Assembly (NCBI GenBank): GCA_947588605.1
Contig: CANPYK010000008.1
Location: 1-64,000 of the forward strand
DNA: 64,000 bases
Direction: 5' to 3'
Source: an uncultured Oscillospiraceae bacterium
GTDB lineage: Bacteria; Bacillota; Clostridia; Oscillospirales; Oscillospiraceae
Position numbers and translations under genes: made by a program
Shown here: positions 18,437-30,933 of the stretch, one piece after another
Layout: each line of letters opens with the position of its first letter
Numbering within the stretch: position 1 is the stretch's first letter
Notes under the pieces: model-generated
Databases searched by the model: none
Seen by the model: only the letters and a program-made list of their open reading frames with translations
Told to the model about the DNA's origin: nothing

Positions 18437-18634
18437 GCTTGGATTTCAGGGCGCAAGCCCAAAAAAATAGGGCCCGGCGGCTACTCCATTTTTATAGCCG
18501 CCGGAGTCACAAAAAAGGAGGTAAAAACTCCCGGCGTTCCGGGTGCGGCAGTGTGGAGACCTGTCGTAAAAGCCCAGAGGCTGTGCCTTGGGTGAGGTAT
18601 CGGGGCAAGTTCACCCCGTATCAGAACGAAGCAA
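18437..18634 (+). other. Structured leader or spacer before msmX, unidentified
   Basis: The 198 bases between DUF624 and msmX hold a perfect 10-bp hairpin (18474-18483 with 18495-18504). On the minus strand it is followed by a T-rich run, so it looks like a minus-strand terminator, though no minus-strand gene precedes it. Then comes about 100 bases of GC-rich sequence with several possible short stems (18525-18625) that I could not assign to a known RNA class. The msmX start has only a weak ribosome binding site (GAACGAAGCAA), unlike nearly every other gene here, so translation may depend on this leader. Confidence 0.4.
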
Positions 18635-19789
<1,155 letters not shown>

Positions 19790-22751: not shown

Positions 22752-23243
22752 ATGAAAGAAATTAGTGAAGAAGCAAAAACCCGGTTTTTTGAGGAGGTCG
22801 GTATCTGTCTGAAGCGGGGCGGCTTTCAAACCGGTCCCGTGGAGGATGGGTTTATGCCGGTTTTCTGGCAGGAGGCCCCGCTGTGCCGGGTGAACGGCGT
22901 GGGCGGGGTCAGGTACCGCAGCGAGGTGACGCGGGACCCCGGCTCGGAGGCGGCGCTGAACCGGGCGATAGACATCGTCAACGTCACCGAAGAATATATG
23001 CGGCTTCTGGAAAAGGCGCCGCAGCTCAACGCCACGGGGCTCGACGAGAGCTATAAGTGCCTTAACGAGTTCAACAGCGCCGTGCTGGCCGCCCATCACA
23101 CCCCCCGCTATGGCTGGGATTTCGTGACTTGGTGCCGGGATTACAGCGGCGAAGGTGTGACGCAGGGTCATTACGTCGGCGGCGATTACGAGGGAGCCAA
23201 CGGTGAATCAGGCGATGTACATCCCGCAGGAGGGTTTACTTGA
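22752..23243 (+). CDS. Conjugative-element hypothetical protein, C-terminus probably truncated
   Basis: A 163-residue frame beginning at 22752 behind GAGGAGGAAAGC. The segment YGWDFVTWCRDYSGEGVTQGHYVGGDYEGA resembles proteins of conjugative elements whose chain normally continues past DYEGA for a longer C-terminal part. Here the frame instead ends in a Gly-rich unrelated tail (NGESGDVHPAGGFT), while another frame (NQAMYIPQEGLL) looks like the natural continuation, suggesting a frameshift near 23195-23205. The end overlaps the end of the protease gene by 8 bases, as expected at the junction between an element remnant and chromosome. Function unknown. Confidence 0.55.
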   Translation: MKEISEEAKTRFFEEVGICLKRGGFQTGPVEDGFMPVFWQEAPLCRVNGVGGVRYRSEVTRDPGSEAALNRAIDIVNVTEEYMRLLEKAPQLNATGLDESYKCLNEFNSAVLAAHHTPRYGWDFVTWCRDYSGEGVTQGHYVGGDYEGANGESGDVHPAGGFT

Positions 23244-26200
23244 CCATCAGCGCCACGAGCCTCTGGAGCACGGTGGCGACCTGAGCGCGGGAGGCGGTGC
23301 CGGTGGGGTCAAGATGGCCGGAACCGTCGCCCTGGAGGAGGCCGACAGACACGGCCCAGCTCATGGCGTCCACGGCCCAGTCCCCCACGTCGGCGGCGTC
23401 GGTGAACGCGACGAGGTCGTCGGTCCCGGTAGTGTCGATGCCGACATTCTTCGCGTACCGGTAGAGCATCAGGGCCATCTCCTGGCGGGTGGCGCCACGG
23501 TCAGGCTCGAAGGTGCTCCTGTCGGTGCCGGCGATGACGCCGGTCTCGGCGGCCCAGGCGACGCTCTCGGTGTACCAGGTGTCTTCTGCCACATCGGGGA
23601 AGGTGATCTTCCCGTCGGAGGCCGCTTCGCTCTCCAGACGCCACAGGACGGTGGCCAGCATGGCGCGGCTCATGTCTGTCCCGGGCTCGAAGGTGGTTTC
23701 GCTGATGCCGTTGAACAGCTCATGGCTGGAGGCGAAGTCCACGGCGTCCTCGAACCAGTCGCCGGCGTCCACGTCCTCGAAGCTCTTGCTGTTGTTGACG
23801 ATCTTCACGGTGGCGGTGCCGTCCAAAAGGACGTAGGCGGTCCCGTCCTCCACAAAGGACTTGGGAACGACCGCCTCCGTGCCGTCCTCGGAAACGACCA
23901 CGGCCACCTCGCCGTCCTTCAGCTCAAACGCGGCCTTGACGCCGCCGGGGATCTCATCGACGGTCTCGCCGCCGGCGGAGACCCGGACGGAGACGGTGTC
24001 CTCGGTCTTTTCAACGGACACGGTCACGTCGCCTGCCTTGCCCAGATCGGCCAGAGCCTCGTCCGGGAGGGTGACGGAGCCCACGGGGGTCTCCACCTTC
24101 AGGTCCGCGTCTGTCTTTTCGGCCAGGTCCTCAACGGTCTTGCCGGGGACGGTGACTTCGGCCTTCGTTACATCGCCGGAGATCTTGGGGGCCACGACCA
24201 CGGTGTCGCTGTCGTTGGCCTCGGCCTGCTTGACGATCTCGCGGCCCGTGGATTCGGTGACCGTGACGGAGGCCTCGCCGTCCTTGACGGAGGCGTCGGG
24301 CGTGGCGGTGGTCTCGGTGGTGGTCTCGCCGTCCTCGGTCTTGTCGCCGGTGGTCACTTCGGCGGCGGGGATGCTGGGAGCGACGTACACCCTCACCTCG
24401 ACCTCGGCCTCAGCGCTCTTAAAGGAGCTTTCCGTCGCCGCAAGGCGGACAAGGTACTTTCCGGCGGAAAGTCCGGGTATGGTCTCCGCGCCCCGCTCCA
24501 CAGGCATCCACGTCTCGTCCTCAGCGTCGGCAGCTCTGTATTCGTAAGTCTTTTCCGCGTCAAGACCCCTGATGCTGCCGTTGGCGCTGGAAGCGGAGCT
24601 GGTCGTACCCGTGGTGAGCGAGGGGGCTTCGGGCCTCGCGGGAACGGGCAGGAGCTGGGGATAGGTTTCTTCAACAGAGCTATCCACAATGGTGAGGTCG
24701 GTCCCCATCCAATCGGGATCAATGGGCAGAGTGCCGTCCTCTGTCACTTCAACAGTCTCACCGTTTATGGTGTATGTGTGGGTGGAATCAAAACCGGTCA
24801 ACGTTTCATTCGTATAGTTGATTTTGATTGCTTTAGACATATCCGGGCAGGTAACCTCTTTGGTAACAAAATTGCCGGCGTAATCCACAGCAACCAGATA
24901 ATACTTCTTCTTCCCGGCTTCCAGCTCTTCTTTAAGGGGTACTTCGACGGTCTTGGTCTGGCCCAGTTCCTCTTTTTCCATGTCGGCGGCGACTCGGGCC
25001 ATCACATAGTTCTGTTCTTTACCAGACTCTCTATCCGCCATCATAAGGTCAGTCGTATTGCTCACCGTGCCTATGGTGAGCAGGAGAACGGCGGCTACAT
25101 ACCTGTTGTCCTGCACGGGCACCGCAAGGTAACCGGTCTGGCCCACATCATCCCATCCGTACATCAGGCCGTCTTCAATAGTAGGCTTCGTGTTATCCAA
25201 TGTGATGATAGTCGTCCAAATGGCGCCGTCCGCGAGCTTGTCCTCTAAGATGTTGAAGCCGCCGTGCGCCCAACTGGTGGTCCGTTCCGTATAAAGCTCA
25301 GGCGGAGCTATGACCTCGATCTTAAACTCCGTGCCTTCCGGGTATTTTTGCCAAGTTGATTTATCATAGCCGTACCATAGGGTTATATTACGACTGGGAT
25401 CAAGTTTTTCGGAAGGTGAAGTTCCAACGGGTAGTTCCCATTGATCAAAGTAAGAACTAGTTCCCTGTATTGAGATCGAATCGAACTCATTACTATATGT
25501 GCCGCCGGAATAGCTGGAATAGGCGGCGTTTCCCCAGGTATAGCGATCCCAGCACTGCGTAAACGTATCCTCGCCCGGTTTTTTGGCGGAAAGCACCGTA
25601 TGCACAATGGCCGGTACACGAATGAAGGTGGGGTGTATCCTGAGGATATCTGTTGTGTTGGTAATCGACATATTCCGCTCAGGAATAAAGCCGCTCTCGT
25701 CGGCAAAGCGGTTATCGCCGATGGTAAACTCGGTGCTGGGGTACTCATACGAGTTCTTTGCGTCGATGTAGTTGACCTTTCCGTCAGGCCTTGTATAGCT
25801 GCGGTTGGTTTCCTCGTCAAACTCGTTGGCGGTGATCCGGTCGAACATAGAAGGCTCTGAGAAGTTGCCGTAGTAGGCCAGGAAGGGCACAGAGAGGTTC
25901 ACCGTGTCCTTCGTTGTTCCGGTCATGGAGATATAGCCCTCCACAAAGGCGCCCTTGGGGTTATTTTCTGCGAAATATGCCTTGTCCTTCTGGGACAGCT
26001 CGATGGTCACTGCCACCTTGATAGACCCGCCTGCCGGAACCGTAACTGCCGTTGCGTTACTTCCGTTCACCCGGAAGGTGACGTTGGAGGTGAGCCTGAT
26101 ATCCTGCGGGCTCATGTACTTGCCGTCCTCATCCTCGAATATCTCCGGCGTCATCACCGTGGAACCGAGGGCGTAGGTGAGAGGTATATCATCAGAAAGA

Positions 26201-28602
26201 TTCCTAATCGTGAAGGAGAAGGAGTATATACCCTTTCTTTCCGCGTCGTCGCCGAGCTCCGCCTTGACCTTGCCGTCGGCCCAGCTGTCCGTGGCCTCTT
26301 TGTCCATGACGATGTAGGCGAGGGAGGATGTGGCGGCGCCGACGTTGGCAAGCCCCGCGCCCTGCTGCCGCACGGGATAGAATAAATTGTATTCGCTTTC
26401 CGGGTCGGTGAGGGGCTGCGCGGTACTCATCAAAAGACTGGTGACAAGGGCGCGCTGCGTTTCAAACGCGTTTTTGTCCCTTTCTAAAAGATCTTCCTCT
26501 TCCAGGCGCTGGGCAACCACTGCGGCCTGACCCGCGATGGAGGGGGTCGCCATGGAGGTGCCGCTCATGGACTCATATCCGCCCGGAACCGTGGAATAGA
26601 TGTTGCCGCCGGGGGCGGTGATCTCCGGCTTGATAGCCAGATTGCCCGTGGTGCCCCAGGAACTGAAATCGCACATTTCGCCGCCCTGGATGTTTACGCT
26701 GGTCGTAACCAGGTCTTTAACAACGCGCATCGTCCCGGTATAAAGGCCATCAGCATTCTTAGTCGATCTTTTTAATACTTCATCCTTATCACGCAATGAC
26801 ATGAGGGCGCACGGAATCTTCTCGCTGGAAGCGTCGAGATCAGGAATCAGATCTATGCGCACATTGTTATAAATCACAAGACCTACAGCGCCGTGCTGCG
26901 CAGCCCACTCATGCTTTGTAGGGAACTTGACTGCGGCACCGCGGGATGCAAATATGATTTTACCTTTAAAATAGTCCTCGGGGTAATCTTCGTAAGCATC
27001 TTCGTCGCCGTATTTTTTATGATCGTTCTCGTCATAGGGATCGCCCAGGAAGACATACTCATAATCAGTACCGGTGCCACCTTCCGAAGTATCGAGCTCT
27101 ATCCACGCTGGTATGCCCACCGTGTCTGAGTCAATCATGACAGTGGCGTATTCCTCAAAGGAGGCACCTTTTCCAGTGATCGTCGTGTTGACGGCCGCCG
27201 CCACCGTCAGAGCATTGGTGAGGGAGCCGGGGGAGCCGCCCGTAGCCATGGGGATGTCCTCGGCGTAGTTCAGGCCGTAGGCGTTGGCATAGTTATTATA
27301 CGGGAAATAGCCGTTATTGCCCGCGCCGCACGCCACCAGGGCGCCGGAATCGACCATCTTGTCGAACACAGAGCCATCTACAAGGCCATTGCTCGATGTG
27401 TTGAGGAAAAAGCTCCTGCCGGTATTGTCGTTACACAGGCTGAGGTTAATGGAGTCACAGCCAAGCATGATTGCGTCCTCGATGGCGCGGAAATAGGTCG
27501 ATTCTACCGCACTCGCACCGCTGAACACCTTCATGAACACAATCTGCGCGTCCGGGGCAACGCCCACGACGGGGTGCTCCATCTCCGTATATTTCATATA
27601 TGTTGGAGTTTCGCCCTCGCCCTCCACAGGCACGTATCTGTTCGCGGCGGCAATGCCAGCCACGTGCATCCCATGCTCCGGCGAGGCGCTACTGGCAGTA
27701 ACTGGATCAACGCTGACGTCGAACCGATTTTTATCATTTCCAGCTTGCGGATAGTTAAATACAAACGGAAACTTTTCGTTTTGATAGGCACCCTTCGCAA
27801 AATCCCGCTGATTCGGTTGGTTAGATATTTCAGTATATGCTTTAAGTTGGGGAATCTTTTCTGCTAACTTCTCCTGGGTCAGCAGCTTATCGGTATAGTC
27901 TTTTCCTGTCTCTTCTTTAAGCTGCTCCAGACTGTATTTCAGAGCGCCAGCGTCAAAGGACGGGTGCTCGATATCAATACCCGTGTCGATGACGGCGATC
28001 AGCTGCCCGGCGCCGGTATAACCACCTTCCCAAGCTTCATTAGCGCCCACCATCTCGGTGGCGGAGGCGCTCACCGTATGAGTGGTGCTCTCCACATCCA
28101 CGATGGGGTCGATGGCCTGGACCTCGGGGACGATGTACAATTCAACGAAGTCCTCGGGGAAATTCTCCCGGAGGTAGGCCGCGATGCGCTCCACGTCGCC
28201 GTATCTCACCGTGGCGTCGAAGGCGTCGGTGATGACGGTGTAGTTCGCCTCCGGGGCGAACGCGCCCTCGCCGCCGAAGAGGTCCCGGTCAACGGCGGCG
28301 GCCATATCGTTCTGGACCTGCTCCAGGGCACTCATGTAGGCGGCGGCTTCCTCGTTGTTTTCGGAGATTTCCTCCGTAGTATAGCCGGCCCCCAGCGCCC
28401 CGTCACCGTTCAGCCGGACGAGAATGACGGTGGGCTCCTCCGGGTCGGGGGCCTCGGGACCCGGTGTCTCGCCGTTGCTCCCGGCAGCCGCCGCGCCGCC
28501 GTCTTCCACGGCGGAAGCCTCCGCCGCCGAGGCCGTGACAGTCATCCCCAGCACCAGCACCAGCGCCAGAACCAGGCATAGGAGTTTTTTGACTGTTTTC
28601 AT
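23236..28602 (-). CDS. Giant surface-anchored subtilisin-family protease (S8, lactocepin/C5a-peptidase-like, SLH)
   Basis: A 1,788-residue secreted protease. The signal peptide is KTVKKLLCLVLALVLVLGMTVTASA (cleavage near 27). A pro-region (to about 185) is followed by the catalytic domain with D206 (IAVIDTGIDIEHP), H310 (SPEHGMHVAGIAA) and S683 (MSGTSMATPSIAG). A protease-associated (PA) insert lies between H and S (about 500-620). Fn3-like/A-domain regions (about 720-1150) resemble cell-envelope proteinases. Further Ig-like repeats rich in T, V, E and D precede three C-terminal SLH domains (about 1600-1788: FEDVDAGDWFEDAV, FPDVAEDTWYTESV, FTDAADVGDWAVDA). SLH domains bind secondary cell-wall polymer, so it should be displayed on the surface to degrade host, dietary or microbial proteins. 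Single gene with its own promoter. Confidence 0.92.
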   Translation of the reverse strand: MKTVKKLLCLVLALVLVLGMTVTASAAEASAVEDGGAAAAGSNGETPGPEAPDPEEPTVILVRLNGDGALGAGYTTEEISENNEEAAAYMSALEQVQNDMAAAVDRDLFGGEGAFAPEANYTVITDAFDATVRYGDVERIAAYLRENFPEDFVELYIVPEVQAIDPIVDVESTTHTVSASATEMVGANEAWEGGYTGAGQLIAVIDTGIDIEHPSFDAGALKYSLEQLKEETGKDYTDKLLTQEKLAEKIPQLKAYTEISNQPNQRDFAKGAYQNEKFPFVFNYPQAGNDKNRFDVSVDPVTASSASPEHGMHVAGIAAANRYVPVEGEGETPTYMKYTEMEHPVVGVAPDAQIVFMKVFSGASAVESTYFRAIEDAIMLGCDSINLSLCNDNTGRSFFLNTSSNGLVDGSVFDKMVDSGALVACGAGNNGYFPYNNYANAYGLNYAEDIPMATGGSPGSLTNALTVAAAVNTTITGKGASFEEYATVMIDSDTVGIPAWIELDTSEGGTGTDYEYVFLGDPYDENDHKKYGDEDAYEDYPEDYFKGKIIFASRGAAVKFPTKHEWAAQHGAVGLVIYNNVRIDLIPDLDASSEKIPCALMSLRDKDEVLKRSTKNADGLYTGTMRVVKDLVTTSVNIQGGEMCDFSSWGTTGNLAIKPEITAPGGNIYSTVPGGYESMSGTSMATPSIAGQAAVVAQRLEEEDLLERDKNAFETQRALVTSLLMSTAQPLTDPESEYNLFYPVRQQGAGLANVGAATSSLAYIVMDKEATDSWADGKVKAELGDDAERKGIYSFSFTIRNLSDDIPLTYALGSTVMTPEIFEDEDGKYMSPQDIRLTSNVTFRVNGSNATAVTVPAGGSIKVAVTIELSQKDKAYFAENNPKGAFVEGYISMTGTTKDTVNLSVPFLAYYGNFSEPSMFDRITANEFDEETNRSYTRPDGKVNYIDAKNSYEYPSTEFTIGDNRFADESGFIPERNMSITNTTDILRIHPTFIRVPAIVHTVLSAKKPGEDTFTQCWDRYTWGNAAYSSYSGGTYSNEFDSISIQGTSSYFDQWELPVGTSPSEKLDPSRNITLWYGYDKSTWQKYPEGTEFKIEVIAPPELYTERTTSWAHGGFNILEDKLADGAIWTTIITLDNTKPTIEDGLMYGWDDVGQTGYLAVPVQDNRYVAAVLLLTIGTVSNTTDLMMADRESGKEQNYVMARVAADMEKEELGQTKTVEVPLKEELEAGKKKYYLVAVDYAGNFVTKEVTCPDMSKAIKINYTNETLTGFDSTHTYTINGETVEVTEDGTLPIDPDWMGTDLTIVDSSVEETYPQLLPVPARPEAPSLTTGTTSSASSANGSIRGLDAEKTYEYRAADAEDETWMPVERGAETIPGLSAGKYLVRLAATESSFKSAEAEVEVRVYVAPSIPAAEVTTGDKTEDGETTTETTATPDASVKDGEASVTVTESTGREIVKQAEANDSDTVVVAPKISGDVTKAEVTVPGKTVEDLAEKTDADLKVETPVGSVTLPDEALADLGKAGDVTVSVEKTEDTVSVRVSAGGETVDEIPGGVKAAFELKDGEVAVVVSEDGTEAVVPKSFVEDGTAYVLLDGTATVKIVNNSKSFEDVDAGDWFEDAVDFASSHELFNGISETTFEPGTDMSRAMLATVLWRLESEAASDGKITFPDVAEDTWYTESVAWAAETGVIAGTDRSTFEPDRGATRQEMALMLYRYAKNVGIDTTGTDDLVAFTDAADVGDWAVDAMSWAVSVGLLQGDGSGHLDPTGTASRAQVATVLQRLVALMVK

Positions 28603-28667
28603 ATAGGTTCACCTCTCAAAAAAGTATACTTTTGCGAATTAGAGTAAAAACAACCAATCTGTTACCC

Positions 28668-28696
28668 ATTATACCGCATCGTCTCCTATGATGCAA
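28668..28696 (-). promoter_or_regulatory. Promoter of the S8 protease
   Basis: On the minus strand TTGCAT (28696-28691), 17 bases, TATAAT (28673-28668), about 65 bases before the start; the leader includes GAGAGGTG before ATG. Confidence 0.7.
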
Positions 28697-28783
28697 GAAA
28701 AAAACAGGTCTATTTCAGCCTCCCTCGAAATCTTTTGCGAAGGGTTCCCATCGCAAATTTCGATAATTTCTTAACAAACCCCC

Positions 28784-28812
28784 TTGACAACCGCTCCGAA
28801 GTGTGTTATATT
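28784..28812 (+). promoter_or_regulatory. Promoter of the riboswitch-flotillin unit
   Basis: TTGACA (28784-28789), 17 bases, TATATT (28807-28812). Transcription would begin just before or at the start of the riboswitch fold at about 28816. Confidence 0.75.
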
Positions 28813-28815
28813 TTT

Positions 28816-28918
28816 AACGTAAACAGGGAGTAGCCCCCCGAACAGGGGTCGCGGCGCTGACAGCACGGTCCTTCTCAGGACCCGGCGGCGCGGTCTTTAT
28901 GACAGCGAGACGTTTACG
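28816..28918 (+). ncRNA. yybP-ykoY-like (manganese) riboswitch
   Basis: The outer helix P1 is CGTAAAC (28818-28824) with GTTTACG (28912-28918). Directly inside the 5' strand is GGGAGTAGC, and directly before the 3' strand is AGCGAGAC, matching the GGGGAGUAGC ... AGCAAGACC ends of the yybP-ykoY class as I remember it. A CCCC...GGGG hairpin (about 28834-28858), a GGTCC-TTCT-c-AGGACC hairpin and a CUUUAUGACAGC strand correspond to the other conserved arms. Known members sense Mn2+ and usually precede exporters. The 3' strand of P1 overlaps the 5' strand of the terminator, so ligand binding should permit read-through into the flotillin gene. Confidence 0.72.
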
Positions 28919-28944
28919 GCGGATTTGCCGTGAGCGTCTTTTTT
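28908..28944 (+). terminator. Riboswitch expression platform terminator
   Basis: AGACG (28908-28912) pairs with CGTCT (28935-28939) and ACGGC (28916-28920) with GCCGT (28927-28931), followed by TTTTTT. The 5' half is shared with riboswitch helix P1, giving mutually exclusive folds. Confidence 0.75.
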
Positions 28945-29000
28945 GTTGATTCGGCGGCTCCTCCCAAACACCACACAATCTTTTTAAGGAGGTCACATCT

Positions 29001-30419
29001 ATGCCAAACATCCACATCCCCCTCGGCGCCGTTCTCGGCGTCCTCGCCGGCGTCCTCGTCGTCGCGCTCCTGGTCATGGGCTACCTGAAAGCGCCCCCGG
29101 ACACCGCGTACATCATCTCCGGCCTTGGCAAAAAGCGCATCCTCATCGGCAAGGCCGGCTGGCGCGTCCCCTTCTTTGAGCGGGTGGACAAGCTGTCCCT
29201 CCGGGTCATGCAGGTGGACGTGAAGACCAGCGAGGCCGTGCCCACCAACGAGTTCATCAACGTCACCGTAGACGGCGTGGCCAACATCAAGATAAGCTCC
29301 GACCCCGAGCTCCTGAAAAAGGCGTCGGAGGCCCTTCTGGGCATGAACCGCCAGGAGCTCGTCAGCCTCGTCACCCAGGTCCTGGAGGGCAACATGCGTG
29401 AGATCGTGGGCTCCGTGGGCCTCAAGGAGATGGTCCAGGACCGCCAGGGCGTGGCCAAGAAGATCACGGAGAACGTGGTCCCCGACATGCAAAAGCTTGG
29501 TATCGAGGTGGTGAACTTCAACATCCAGAACTTCAAGGACGGCGCGGGCACCATCGAGAACATGGGCATCGACAACGTGGAGCAGATCCGCAAGAACGCC
29601 CAGATCGCCAAGGCCAACGCCCAGCGGGACATCGCCATCGCCAACGCCAACGCCGAGCAGGAGGCCAACGCCGTGAAGGTCCAGGCCGACAAGATGATCG
29701 CCGAGCAGAACGCCGAGCTGGCCGTCCAGCAGGCCGACATGAAGGTCCGCGCCGACACCAAGAAGGCCGAGGCCGACGCGGCCTACTCCATCCAGCAGGA
29801 GCAGCAGCGCAAGACCATCGAGGTCACGAAGGCCAACGCCGACATCGCCCGGCGCGAGAAGGAGGCGGAGCTTGCCGAGCGCGAGATCGCCCTTCGGGAG
29901 CGCAAGCTGGACGCCGAGGTCCGCAAGGAGGCCGACGCCCTCAAGTACAAGGCCGAGAAGGAGGCCGAGGCCGACCTCATCCGCCGCCAGCGGGAGGCCG
30001 AGGCCCAGCGCTACGAGGCCGAGCAGCAGGCGGAGGCCAAAAGGGCCGAGGCGGAAGCCCTCCGTTACGCCATGGAGCAGGAGGCCGAGGGCATCCGAGC
30101 CCGCGGCATCGCCGAGGCGGAGGCCATCGAGAAGAAGGCCGAGGCCCAGAAGAAGATGGGCGAGGCGTCCATCCTGGAGATGTACCTGAAGGCCCTCCCG
30201 GAGGTCGTGGCCAGCGCCGCCGGACCCCTTGCCCAGACCGACAAGATCGTCATGTACGGCGACGGCAACTCCACCAAGCTCATCAAAGACGTTATGTCAA
30301 CCGCCAACCAGGTGGTAGACGGCATGAAGGAGTCCACCGGCATCGACCTTGCCACCCTCCTCGCCTCCTTCCTGGGCGCCAAGGCCGCCGCAAGCACCGA
30401 GGAATTCCCCGCCGAATGA
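29001..30419 (+). CDS. Flotillin-like SPFH/band 7 protein
   Basis: A 472-residue membrane-associated scaffold protein with strong AAGGAGGTCACATCT before ATG. One N-terminal hydrophobic segment (residues 9-30) is followed by an SPFH domain (about 35-215) with GLGKKRILIGKAGWRVPFFERVDKLSLR and VVNFNIQNFKD. A long coiled coil rich in EAE/AEAE repeats (about 215-390) and a conserved tail (PEVVASAAGPLAQTDKIVMYGDGNSTKLIKD) complete the flotillin pattern (FloT/YuaG). Flotillins organise membrane microdomains and oligomerise via the coiled coil. No NfeD-like partner gene is adjacent. Expression seems controlled by the upstream riboswitch, an unusual pairing. Confidence 0.9.
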   Translation: MPNIHIPLGAVLGVLAGVLVVALLVMGYLKAPPDTAYIISGLGKKRILIGKAGWRVPFFERVDKLSLRVMQVDVKTSEAVPTNEFINVTVDGVANIKISSDPELLKKASEALLGMNRQELVSLVTQVLEGNMREIVGSVGLKEMVQDRQGVAKKITENVVPDMQKLGIEVVNFNIQNFKDGAGTIENMGIDNVEQIRKNAQIAKANAQRDIAIANANAEQEANAVKVQADKMIAEQNAELAVQQADMKVRADTKKAEADAAYSIQQEQQRKTIEVTKANADIARREKEAELAEREIALRERKLDAEVRKEADALKYKAEKEAEADLIRRQREAEAQRYEAEQQAEAKRAEAEALRYAMEQEAEGIRARGIAEAEAIEKKAEAQKKMGEASILEMYLKALPEVVASAAGPLAQTDKIVMYGDGNSTKLIKDVMSTANQVVDGMKESTGIDLATLLASFLGAKAAASTEEFPAE

Positions 30420-30479: not shown

Positions 30480-30900
30480 CTCTATCGTCCAACCCTCGCT
30501 GCCCCCCTGCCCCCCTCCTACGAGGAGGGGGCTTTTAAAAGGTTGCGGCTTCGCCGCAGATTTTGATTTGCCCGCTGCGGCGGGGACGGGGGACGGGGGA
30601 CGAGGGGGCGGGCGGGTTTAGAACCCGCCCCTACAGTAAAAATTGCGTTCAATCATCGCCGTACGGGCCGCTGCCCACAGCGGCCCGCGTTGCAATGACC
30701 TCCCACGCCGGTTGAATGGGATAGCCTTCCAGATTCCCTGTAGGGGCGGGTTCCAAACCCGCCCGTGCCACGTTGCGGGATGGAACGGTTTCGATAAAAC
30801 GCATCCGTCCCCGGTAAAAAAGCCCCTCCCTTGGGAGGGGGGCAGGGGGGCAGGGGAGTCGGTCGCGGCGCCGCGGATTTTTGACGAAAAAAAGAAAAAA
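30480..30900. repeat. Mosaic of intergenic palindromic modules, region 1
   Basis: No gene. It contains module A, GTAGGGGCGGGTTC-AAACCCGCCC (30610-30634 and 30740-30764, in opposite orientation), module B, GGGCCGCTGCCCACAGCGGCCC (30665-30686), a GGTTGCGGCTTCGCCGCAGATTTTGATTT module (about 30540-30570), and hairpins made of GCCCCTCCC/GGGAGGGG (30818-30842) with a T-run on the minus strand. The same modules recur at 35950-36780, and related ones at 53440-54240. Confidence 0.75.
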
Positions 30901-30905
30901 TGACT

Positions 30906-30933
30906 TTCACAATGGGGAATATGGTGCTATAAT
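30906..30933 (+). promoter_or_regulatory. Promoter of cardiolipin synthase
   Basis: TTCACA (30906-30911), 16 bases, TATAAT (30928-30933), 30 bases before the start; GAGGGAGG serves as ribosome binding site. Confidence 0.6.

Follow-up and report, generated by a model that had tools for sequence, protein, structure and literature searches.

The window analyzed here is a stretch of 64,000 nucleotides from an uncultured Oscillospiraceae bacterium (contig CANPYK010000008.1, positions 1 to 64,000). On its forward strand lies a gene for a flotillin-like protein, preceded by a promoter, a four-arm RNA fold and an intrinsic terminator. The initial annotation, made from the sequence alone, took this leader for a manganese riboswitch of the yybP-ykoY class. 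The features are listed below; values marked A4 come from an alignment of 97 leaders (95 distinct) that is considered further on.

28784..28812, +: sigma-70 type promoter, TTGACA-17 nt-TATATT, near-consensus (11/12 consensus matches)
28817-28917, +: four-arm RNA (P1-P4)
28819-28826 with 28911-28917, +: P1 pairing
28819..28826, +: P1 5' strand GUAAAC(A)G, drawn with a bulged A; its outer six bases pair with 28912-28917
28827..28832, +: L1 5' strand GGAGUA, opposite 28907-28910, between P1 and the junction
28836..28848, +: P2 hairpin; two-sided changes in 4/4 pairs (A4)
28850..28892, +: P3 arm (P3a, P3b and distal stem), helices 5-7 of the covariation test
28860..28866, +: L3, a seven-nucleotide bulge ACAGCAC with A28862 at the third position
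28893..28903, +: P4, a short hairpin; two-sided changes in 3/3 pairs, 83.1% of cells paired (A4)
28905..28911, +: P1.2 and L1 3' strand GCGAGAC; AGAC (28908-28911) invariant in 97/97 rows
28907..28947, +: intrinsic terminator, a 15-pair stem (28907-28940) followed by a U run
28912..28917, +: P1 3' strand GUUUAC, common to aptamer P1 and the terminator 5' arm
28986..28992, +: Shine-Dalgarno sequence AAGGAGG, by sequence inspection
29001..30419, +: flotillin-like SPFH protein, 472 aa, the putative regulated gene; SPFH/Band_7 domain, best NCBIfam match FloT

The leader and the flotillin gene

The consensus promoter claimed in the initial annotation was recovered, and transcription from it would start at about the first base of P1 (28817-28820). 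Three promoter-like sites were found in the 2.4 kb scanned, against 0.3 expected in shuffled sequence, and the arrangement TTGACA, 17-18 nt, TATATT or TAAATT is present in 13 of 13 leaders of the genus. The RNA from 28817 to 28947 folds at -60.6 kcal/mol (z -3.99), a value reached by none of 200 shuffled sequences. The terminator stretch (28903-28949) has a z score of -6.65; the aptamer alone (28817-28922) stands out only modestly, with a z score of -2.13 and 6 of 200 shuffled sequences folding at least as low. When the aptamer was folded alone P1 was closed, with the 5' GUAAAC paired to the 3' GUUUAC, and when the full leader was folded the P1 3' strand was captured by the terminator. The two folds thus agree with the earlier proposal that the terminator reuses this strand.

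That the gene behind the leader encodes a flotillin-like protein was also upheld. The ORF has an SPFH/Band_7 domain (4.9e-25, 89 bits, cut-off 23.6), and its best NCBIfam match is FloT (NF058507; 280.6 bits, E 2.8e-83), for which the equivalog cut-off is 700. Against Pfam Flot it scores 25.5 bits (E 1.5e-05) with a cut-off of 27; a relative, L063, lies above this cut-off at 31.2 bits. The protein resembles the SPFH scaffolds FloT and FloA of Bacillus but differs in falling under the curated FloT cut-off. To our knowledge, the Bacillus flotillins are not under riboswitch control. The ORF has one match within its own 2.34-Mb genome. Its nearest named relatives are from uncultured Oscillospiraceae metagenome bins labelled Lapin, which we take to mean rabbit gut; one of these proteins (L098) is 99% identical.

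Cardiolipin synthase does follow flotillin in the same direction, as first described, but it begins 544 bases past the flotillin gene and a separate promoter-like site precedes it at 30906-30933, so that it is probably a separate unit and not co-transcribed. The gap between the two genes contains, at 30610-30764, an inverted pair of the palindrome TGTAGGGGCGGGTT..AACCCGCCC. With up to 2 mismatches allowed, this palindrome is matched 222 times across the genome (113 + 109, a few matches being scored on both strands), and many of the matches form inverted pairs 100-250 bases apart; the reversed control pattern gave 0. The pair looks like a MITE or REP-like element. Elsewhere in the window a malK-I RNA (RF03069, 101.4 bits) at 18466-18640 is situated directly 5' to the gene for a MalK-like ABC ATPase (18635-19789), and the divergent neighbour of the flotillin locus (23236-28602, minus strand) encodes a 1788-aa subtilase with PA, fn3-like and SLH domains.

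Conservation of the RNA structure

A DNA search with the leader found it in 13 of 60 genomes including its own, all of the same genus. The gene behind it was flotillin at 12 of the 13 loci, and the remaining one (L036) was at a contig end. RNAalifold predicted 36 pairs for the 13 genus leaders, 16 of them with compensatory change. When the drawn structure was applied to 12 genus leaders, 96.8% of cells paired and 10 of 29 pairs had a two-sided change; four of five measures were above all 500 shuffles, and the fifth (further pair types) was matched in 167 of 500. P1 is invariant among 12 near relatives. Over the 97 leaders of A4 the outer P1 has two-sided changes in 5 of 6 pairs. In the alignment as a whole 92.4% of cells pair, compared with 66.7% in shuffled alignments; two-sided changes are seen in 682 cells (190 shuffled) and at least one is seen in 26 of 29 pairs (23 shuffled). 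The A4 covariation score of 0.646 compares with 0.195 after shuffling and no more than 0.088 when partners are slid; it leans toward the structure because the alignment was fitted to the model. Absent from A4 are L143, L151, L161, L098, L099, L101, L102, L103 and L117, which are duplicate leaders, weak, or were found later.

The conserved core is that of the Mn2+ class. Together with a covarying four-way junction (P1-P4), the leader has the L1 core GGAGUA opposite GAGA adjoining P1; the stretches G28828-A28832 and A28908-C28911 show no variation across the 97 rows, and 28827 is G in 95. In its 5' strand L1 has the letters of the consensus of RF00080, the Rfam model for the class, and in both strands it has those of SSRC10 (RF02617), discussed below. 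The sharing of the P1 3' strand with the terminator is likewise widespread. In a test that used the last 12 nt of the aptamer, the strand could serve as a terminator arm with a score of at least 10 in 91 of 97 leaders but in only 4 of 485 shuffled tails; the window itself scores 15. With another locus's tail this score was reached in 269 of 478 cases, probably because many leaders share P1 letters. In an earlier, looser test all 97 leaders passed, but so did 34 of 97 in the shuffled control, and the stricter test was used instead. Besides a missing RF00080 match, the initial annotation had named a lack of covariation behind the P1/terminator switch in homologous leaders as grounds for abandoning its reading; covariation and the P1/terminator overlap were both found.

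Published structures show L3 as UCAAUUC for L. lactis and ACAUACU for X. oryzae; the third position is always A, and N7 of this base contacts Mn2+ (PMC6754395). The window likewise has a seven-nucleotide L3 with adenosine third (UCAGCAC or similar in relatives), and A28862, at this third position, corresponds to the Mn2+-contacting A41 of L. lactis and A48 of X. oryzae. L3 is 7 nt long in 90 of 97 rows of A4, and by alignment column its third base is A in 92. Of the five other rows, L067, L147, L163 and L166 have U, and L096 looks like an alignment slip. U at the contact position (CGACUAAACGG type) was seen in the flotillin leaders L143, L147, L161, L163 and L166, which belong to one flotillin clade with 100/100 support, and also in L067. 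Since the X. oryzae A-to-U mutant loses the stable Mn2+-docked state (PMC6754395), the U in these leaders may mark a natural shift in ligand or affinity.

Detection of the element and the genes behind it

RF00080, the check proposed for the class call, fails on the window: this model, which has a cut-off of 45 bits, gave no match at E<=10 in 28600-29060, a result that counts against the call by the initial annotation's own criterion. When all of Rfam was searched over the same interval at E<=10, only four chance matches were obtained, all to other families. The element was not found by RF00080 at E<=10 in its own whole genome or in 12 close relatives, nor at E<=1 in 40 wider loci located with a model of our own (R1, below). 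Within the order RF00080 gave matches in 8 of 197 genomes under stricter filters, at 21-35 bits, all below the cut-off. Seven of these eight loci were classified by gene (L048 was left out), as MntP (L045, L050, L051), P-ATPase (L046, L047), OAD_beta (L049) and Na/Ca exchanger (L052). The MntP and P-ATPase leaders score 24-35 bits, and because these too stay under the cut-off, RF00080 is a poor detector here. In a control panel of 14 named genomes it matched 3 at E<=0.001, and Lactococcus lactis, from which an aptamer of the class was crystallised, was not among them; at E<=10 it matched 9, L. lactis included (matching position not shown). Much of the 3' half of the RF00080 consensus is unpaired. 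We read the failure as a limit of the database model and not of class membership, because models grown from the flotillin leaders recover leaders of Mn2+ exporters, and for this reason discarding the class call for want of an RF00080 match was dropped.

Two such models were used. R1 was built from 12 genus leaders only; L042 (genome G004), whose P2 aligned badly, was left out and was recovered by R1 afterwards at 61 bits. R2 extends R1 and was built from 97 matches, with no RF00080-found sequence among them. Of the eight order leaders found by RF00080, R2 recovered seven, including the three MntP leaders, compared with two for R1. One model (R2) thus detects the element together with leaders of Mn2+ exporters (MntP, P-ATPase, TerC).

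In the family, R1 identified 40 places in 36 of 250 genomes, with at most 16 candidates scored per genome and three training leaders among the 40. A transporter or SPFH gene was located behind 38 of them. The best-matching gene within 1.3 kb was flotillin at 10 (three of them training leaders), CitMHS at 7, a second, prohibitin-like SPFH family at 6, P-ATPase and Na/Pi at 5 each, OAD_beta at 3 and Na/Ca exchanger at 2, with none recognised at 2. SPFH genes of either family were therefore behind 16 of 40 places, or 13 of 37 without the training leaders. In the order R1 matched 19 of 295 genomes, four of them already among the family hits; the other 14 hits preceded Na/Ca exchanger (6), OAD_beta (5), P-ATPase (1), CitMHS (1) or none (1), one weak hit being left out of this tally. 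L186 and L187 (20-21 bits, no recognised gene) and L094 (only 134 bases left) were counted as none, L097 (19.2 bits) was left out of the gene classification, and L187 was not found by R2 at E<=1.

R2 gave matches in 102 of 398 genomes of the phylum. Among the matches listed there were 29 new loci, and within 1.4 kb these had Na/Ca exchanger (9), P-ATPase (6), OAD_beta (4), TerC (4) or a LemA then TPM-domain layout (L191, L201, L202); 3 were not identified. Ten of the 29 were without a BLAST label, and seven of these were scanned with Pfam (L198, L202 and L204 were left out). Flotillin was behind none of the 29 loci listed, and the flotillin link therefore seems confined to part of Clostridia. 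At the three LemA loci, which are in other Bacillota, the LemA-family gene is first and the TPM-domain gene second (L191 and L201 by Pfam, L202 by layout); these are further non-transporter membrane proteins behind the riboswitch. A riboswitch before the MntP gene of the window's own genome was rejected, as R2 gave no match at E<=1 in the 3.4-kb locus. No TerC gene was found in this genome.

Upstream regions were also surveyed from the side of the gene, taking the best 80 among 315 flotillin relatives from named genomes. The element is upstream of flotillin at 52 of these 80 loci, 51 detected by R1 on the same strand at E<=0.08 (47 at E<=0.01) and one (L117) by R2. Five of the 52 are genomes of R1 training leaders (L098, L099, L101-L103), without which the count is 47 of 75. 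As the 80 are the closest relatives of the window protein, 52 of 80 is not a share of all flotillins. Among the 28 loci without the element, four have less than 150 nt upstream and two roughly 300 nt; the other 22 have at least some 1.8 kb, in which no match was found. On a tree of 74 flotillins (52 with the element and 22 without; the six with short upstream regions were left out) the label switches 9 times, compared with 19.2 after shuffling, and the midpoint fork, which is weakly supported, has carriers on either side. The pairing of this element with SPFH genes, which the initial annotation proposed to look for in other genomes, thus recurs both at flotillin loci and at the 16 family places, and the flotillin link is not local to the window.

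The prohibitin-like label for the second family is proposed here; its members are behind the element at L056, L059, L068, L069, L072 and L178. At L125 a gene of this family is directly 3' to flotillin (61% identity over 192 aa), and genome G379 has separate element copies before CitMHS, a prohibitin-like SPFH gene and flotillin. A flotillin operon partner was rejected: the longest ORF on the plus strand that starts no further than 1.2 kb past flotillin, present at 42 of 51 loci, forms no large cluster (the largest has 4 members; several loci have little sequence left).

Manganese control of flotillin and alternative readings

By every structural test made except the Rfam model, the leader is a riboswitch of the Mn2+ class. 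The class call of the initial annotation is thus borne out by the recovery of Mn2+-exporter leaders with R1 and R2 and by the fit of the L1 and L3 letters, even though RF00080 itself fails. Like the L. lactis-type aptamer represented by RF00080, it has a four-way junction, the L1 GGAGUA core, a seven-nucleotide L3 with A third and a P1 strand shared with the terminator; it differs in lying below RF00080 detection, in a P1 drawn with a bulged A, and in preceding flotillin instead of a metal exporter. Very probably, flotillin is controlled here by a transcriptional Mn2+ ON riboswitch of the yybP-ykoY class in its L. lactis-like form. That Mn2+ is the ligand, that it switches the gene on and why it should do so are inferred. 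In the L. lactis riboswitch P1.1 is stabilised by Mn2+, which keeps the terminator from forming (PMC11087558), and an ON switch is proposed here because the layout is the same. At low Mn2+ the terminator would capture the P1 3' strand and transcription would stop before the flotillin gene. At high Mn2+, L1 and L3 would dock around Mg2+ and Mn2+ and hold P1; the terminator could then not form, and flotillin would be made. Translational control was dropped, as the terminator accounts for the layout.

Several observations count against the Mn2+ reading. RF00080 misses the element in the window and its relatives, Na/Ca exchanger, OAD beta, Na/Pi and CitMHS are named for Na+, Ca2+ or citrate, the MntP gene of the same genome is without an R2 match, no TerC gene was found there, 22 of 80 flotillin loci are without the element despite about 1.8 kb or more of upstream sequence, and flotillin was behind none of the 29 phylum loci listed. 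The same fold might instead sense another ion (Ca2+, Na+ or Mg2+) and tune Na+- or Ca2+-linked membrane energetics, with flotillin as a stress partner. The presence of Na_Ca_ex, OAD_beta, Na_Pi_cotrans and CitMHS among the families behind the element would suit this, as would the small clade with U at the Mn2+-contact position and the occurrence of oxaloacetate decarboxylase genes behind Na+-I (DUF1646) riboswitches also (PMC9337991). We consider it unlikely, since the Mn2+-contacting A is kept in 92 of 97 rows, window included, and RF00080 itself finds OAD_beta and Na_Ca_ex leaders (L049, L052). The Na+-I riboswitch as such was rejected: its model gave no match at E<=10 in 28600-29060, and it is described with two extended stems, P1 and P2 (PMC9337991), in place of four arms.

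An attenuator or protein-binding site with no metal sensing would be consistent with the absence of an RF00080 match, but is very improbable given that two leader-grown models recover TerC, P-ATPase, Na/Ca-exchanger and MntP leaders and that the L1/L3 letters of the Mn2+ class are present.

Rfam holds a streptococcal relative of the element, SSRC10, as an sRNA. In Streptococcus it was observed by Northern blot and RACE; it has a terminator and lies ahead of a putative calcium transporter (PMC3675131). The SSRC10 model matches 6 of the 40 R1 loci at E<=1 and 26.7-37 bits, namely L061, L064, L086 and L093 at 29-37 bits over leader and terminator, and L084 and L089 more weakly; all fall below its 56-bit cut-off, and no flotillin leader is among them. 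SSRC10 is probably a terminated form of the Mn2+ riboswitch that has been filed as an sRNA; to go by the title of one paper, a Streptococcus Mn riboswitch reportedly precedes an Mn/Ca ATPase. That the short terminated RNA of the window acts in trans, with control of flotillin incidental, would be in line with the filing of SSRC10 but is extremely improbable, as SSRC10 matches neither the window nor any flotillin or SPFH leader among the 40, the element is kept upstream of flotillin at 52 of the best 80 of 315 loci, and there is no conserved further partner gene across the 51 loci examined.

Under the Mn2+ ON reading, the reason for placing a flotillin under manganese control may be sought in Bacillus subtilis. 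There the TerC protein MeeF pulls down both FloT and FloA in co-immunoprecipitation, and MeeY pulls down FloA; SecDF and further secretion proteins are among the co-precipitates (PMC10550928), and meeY has an Mn riboswitch (PMC10246235, PMC12096827). By analogy, a Mn2+-induced scaffold for a membrane complex that exports or loads Mn2+ would fit the locus. Our best guess is that, in excess Mn2+, flotillin and the second SPFH family would serve as scaffolds for membrane proteins exporting or loading the metal or protecting the translocon. We propose tentatively, as a possibility that may well need revision, that the two SPFH families (flotillin and prohibitin-like) genuinely belong to the Mn2+-excess regulon of Oscillospiraceae and related Clostridia, induced by the riboswitch to organise or protect the machinery for Mn2+ export or loading, and that the lineage with U may mark a change of ligand or affinity.

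In the open-licence literature no report of an Mn2+ riboswitch before a flotillin or SPFH gene was found; the gene lists of the two main 2015 papers on the class, which lie outside it, may already include the target. Within the same literature yybP-ykoY and flotillin occur together only in the TerC paper, where flotillins are co-precipitation partners (PMC10550928), and yybP-associated genes are described as putative cation transporters (PMC7266159). The fold is already known; what appears to be new is the target and the under-detected variant. Mn2+ riboswitches are generally read as controls of metal transporters. Many members of the class in gut Clostridia are missed by the standard Rfam model, so that Mn2+ regulons in these bacteria are probably under-annotated. 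The repeated link with SPFH genes gives bacterial flotillins a concrete, testable role, one that fits the co-purification of TerC metalation proteins with flotillins, and suggests that manganese levels may be linked to membrane organisation in this gut bacterium and many of its relatives.
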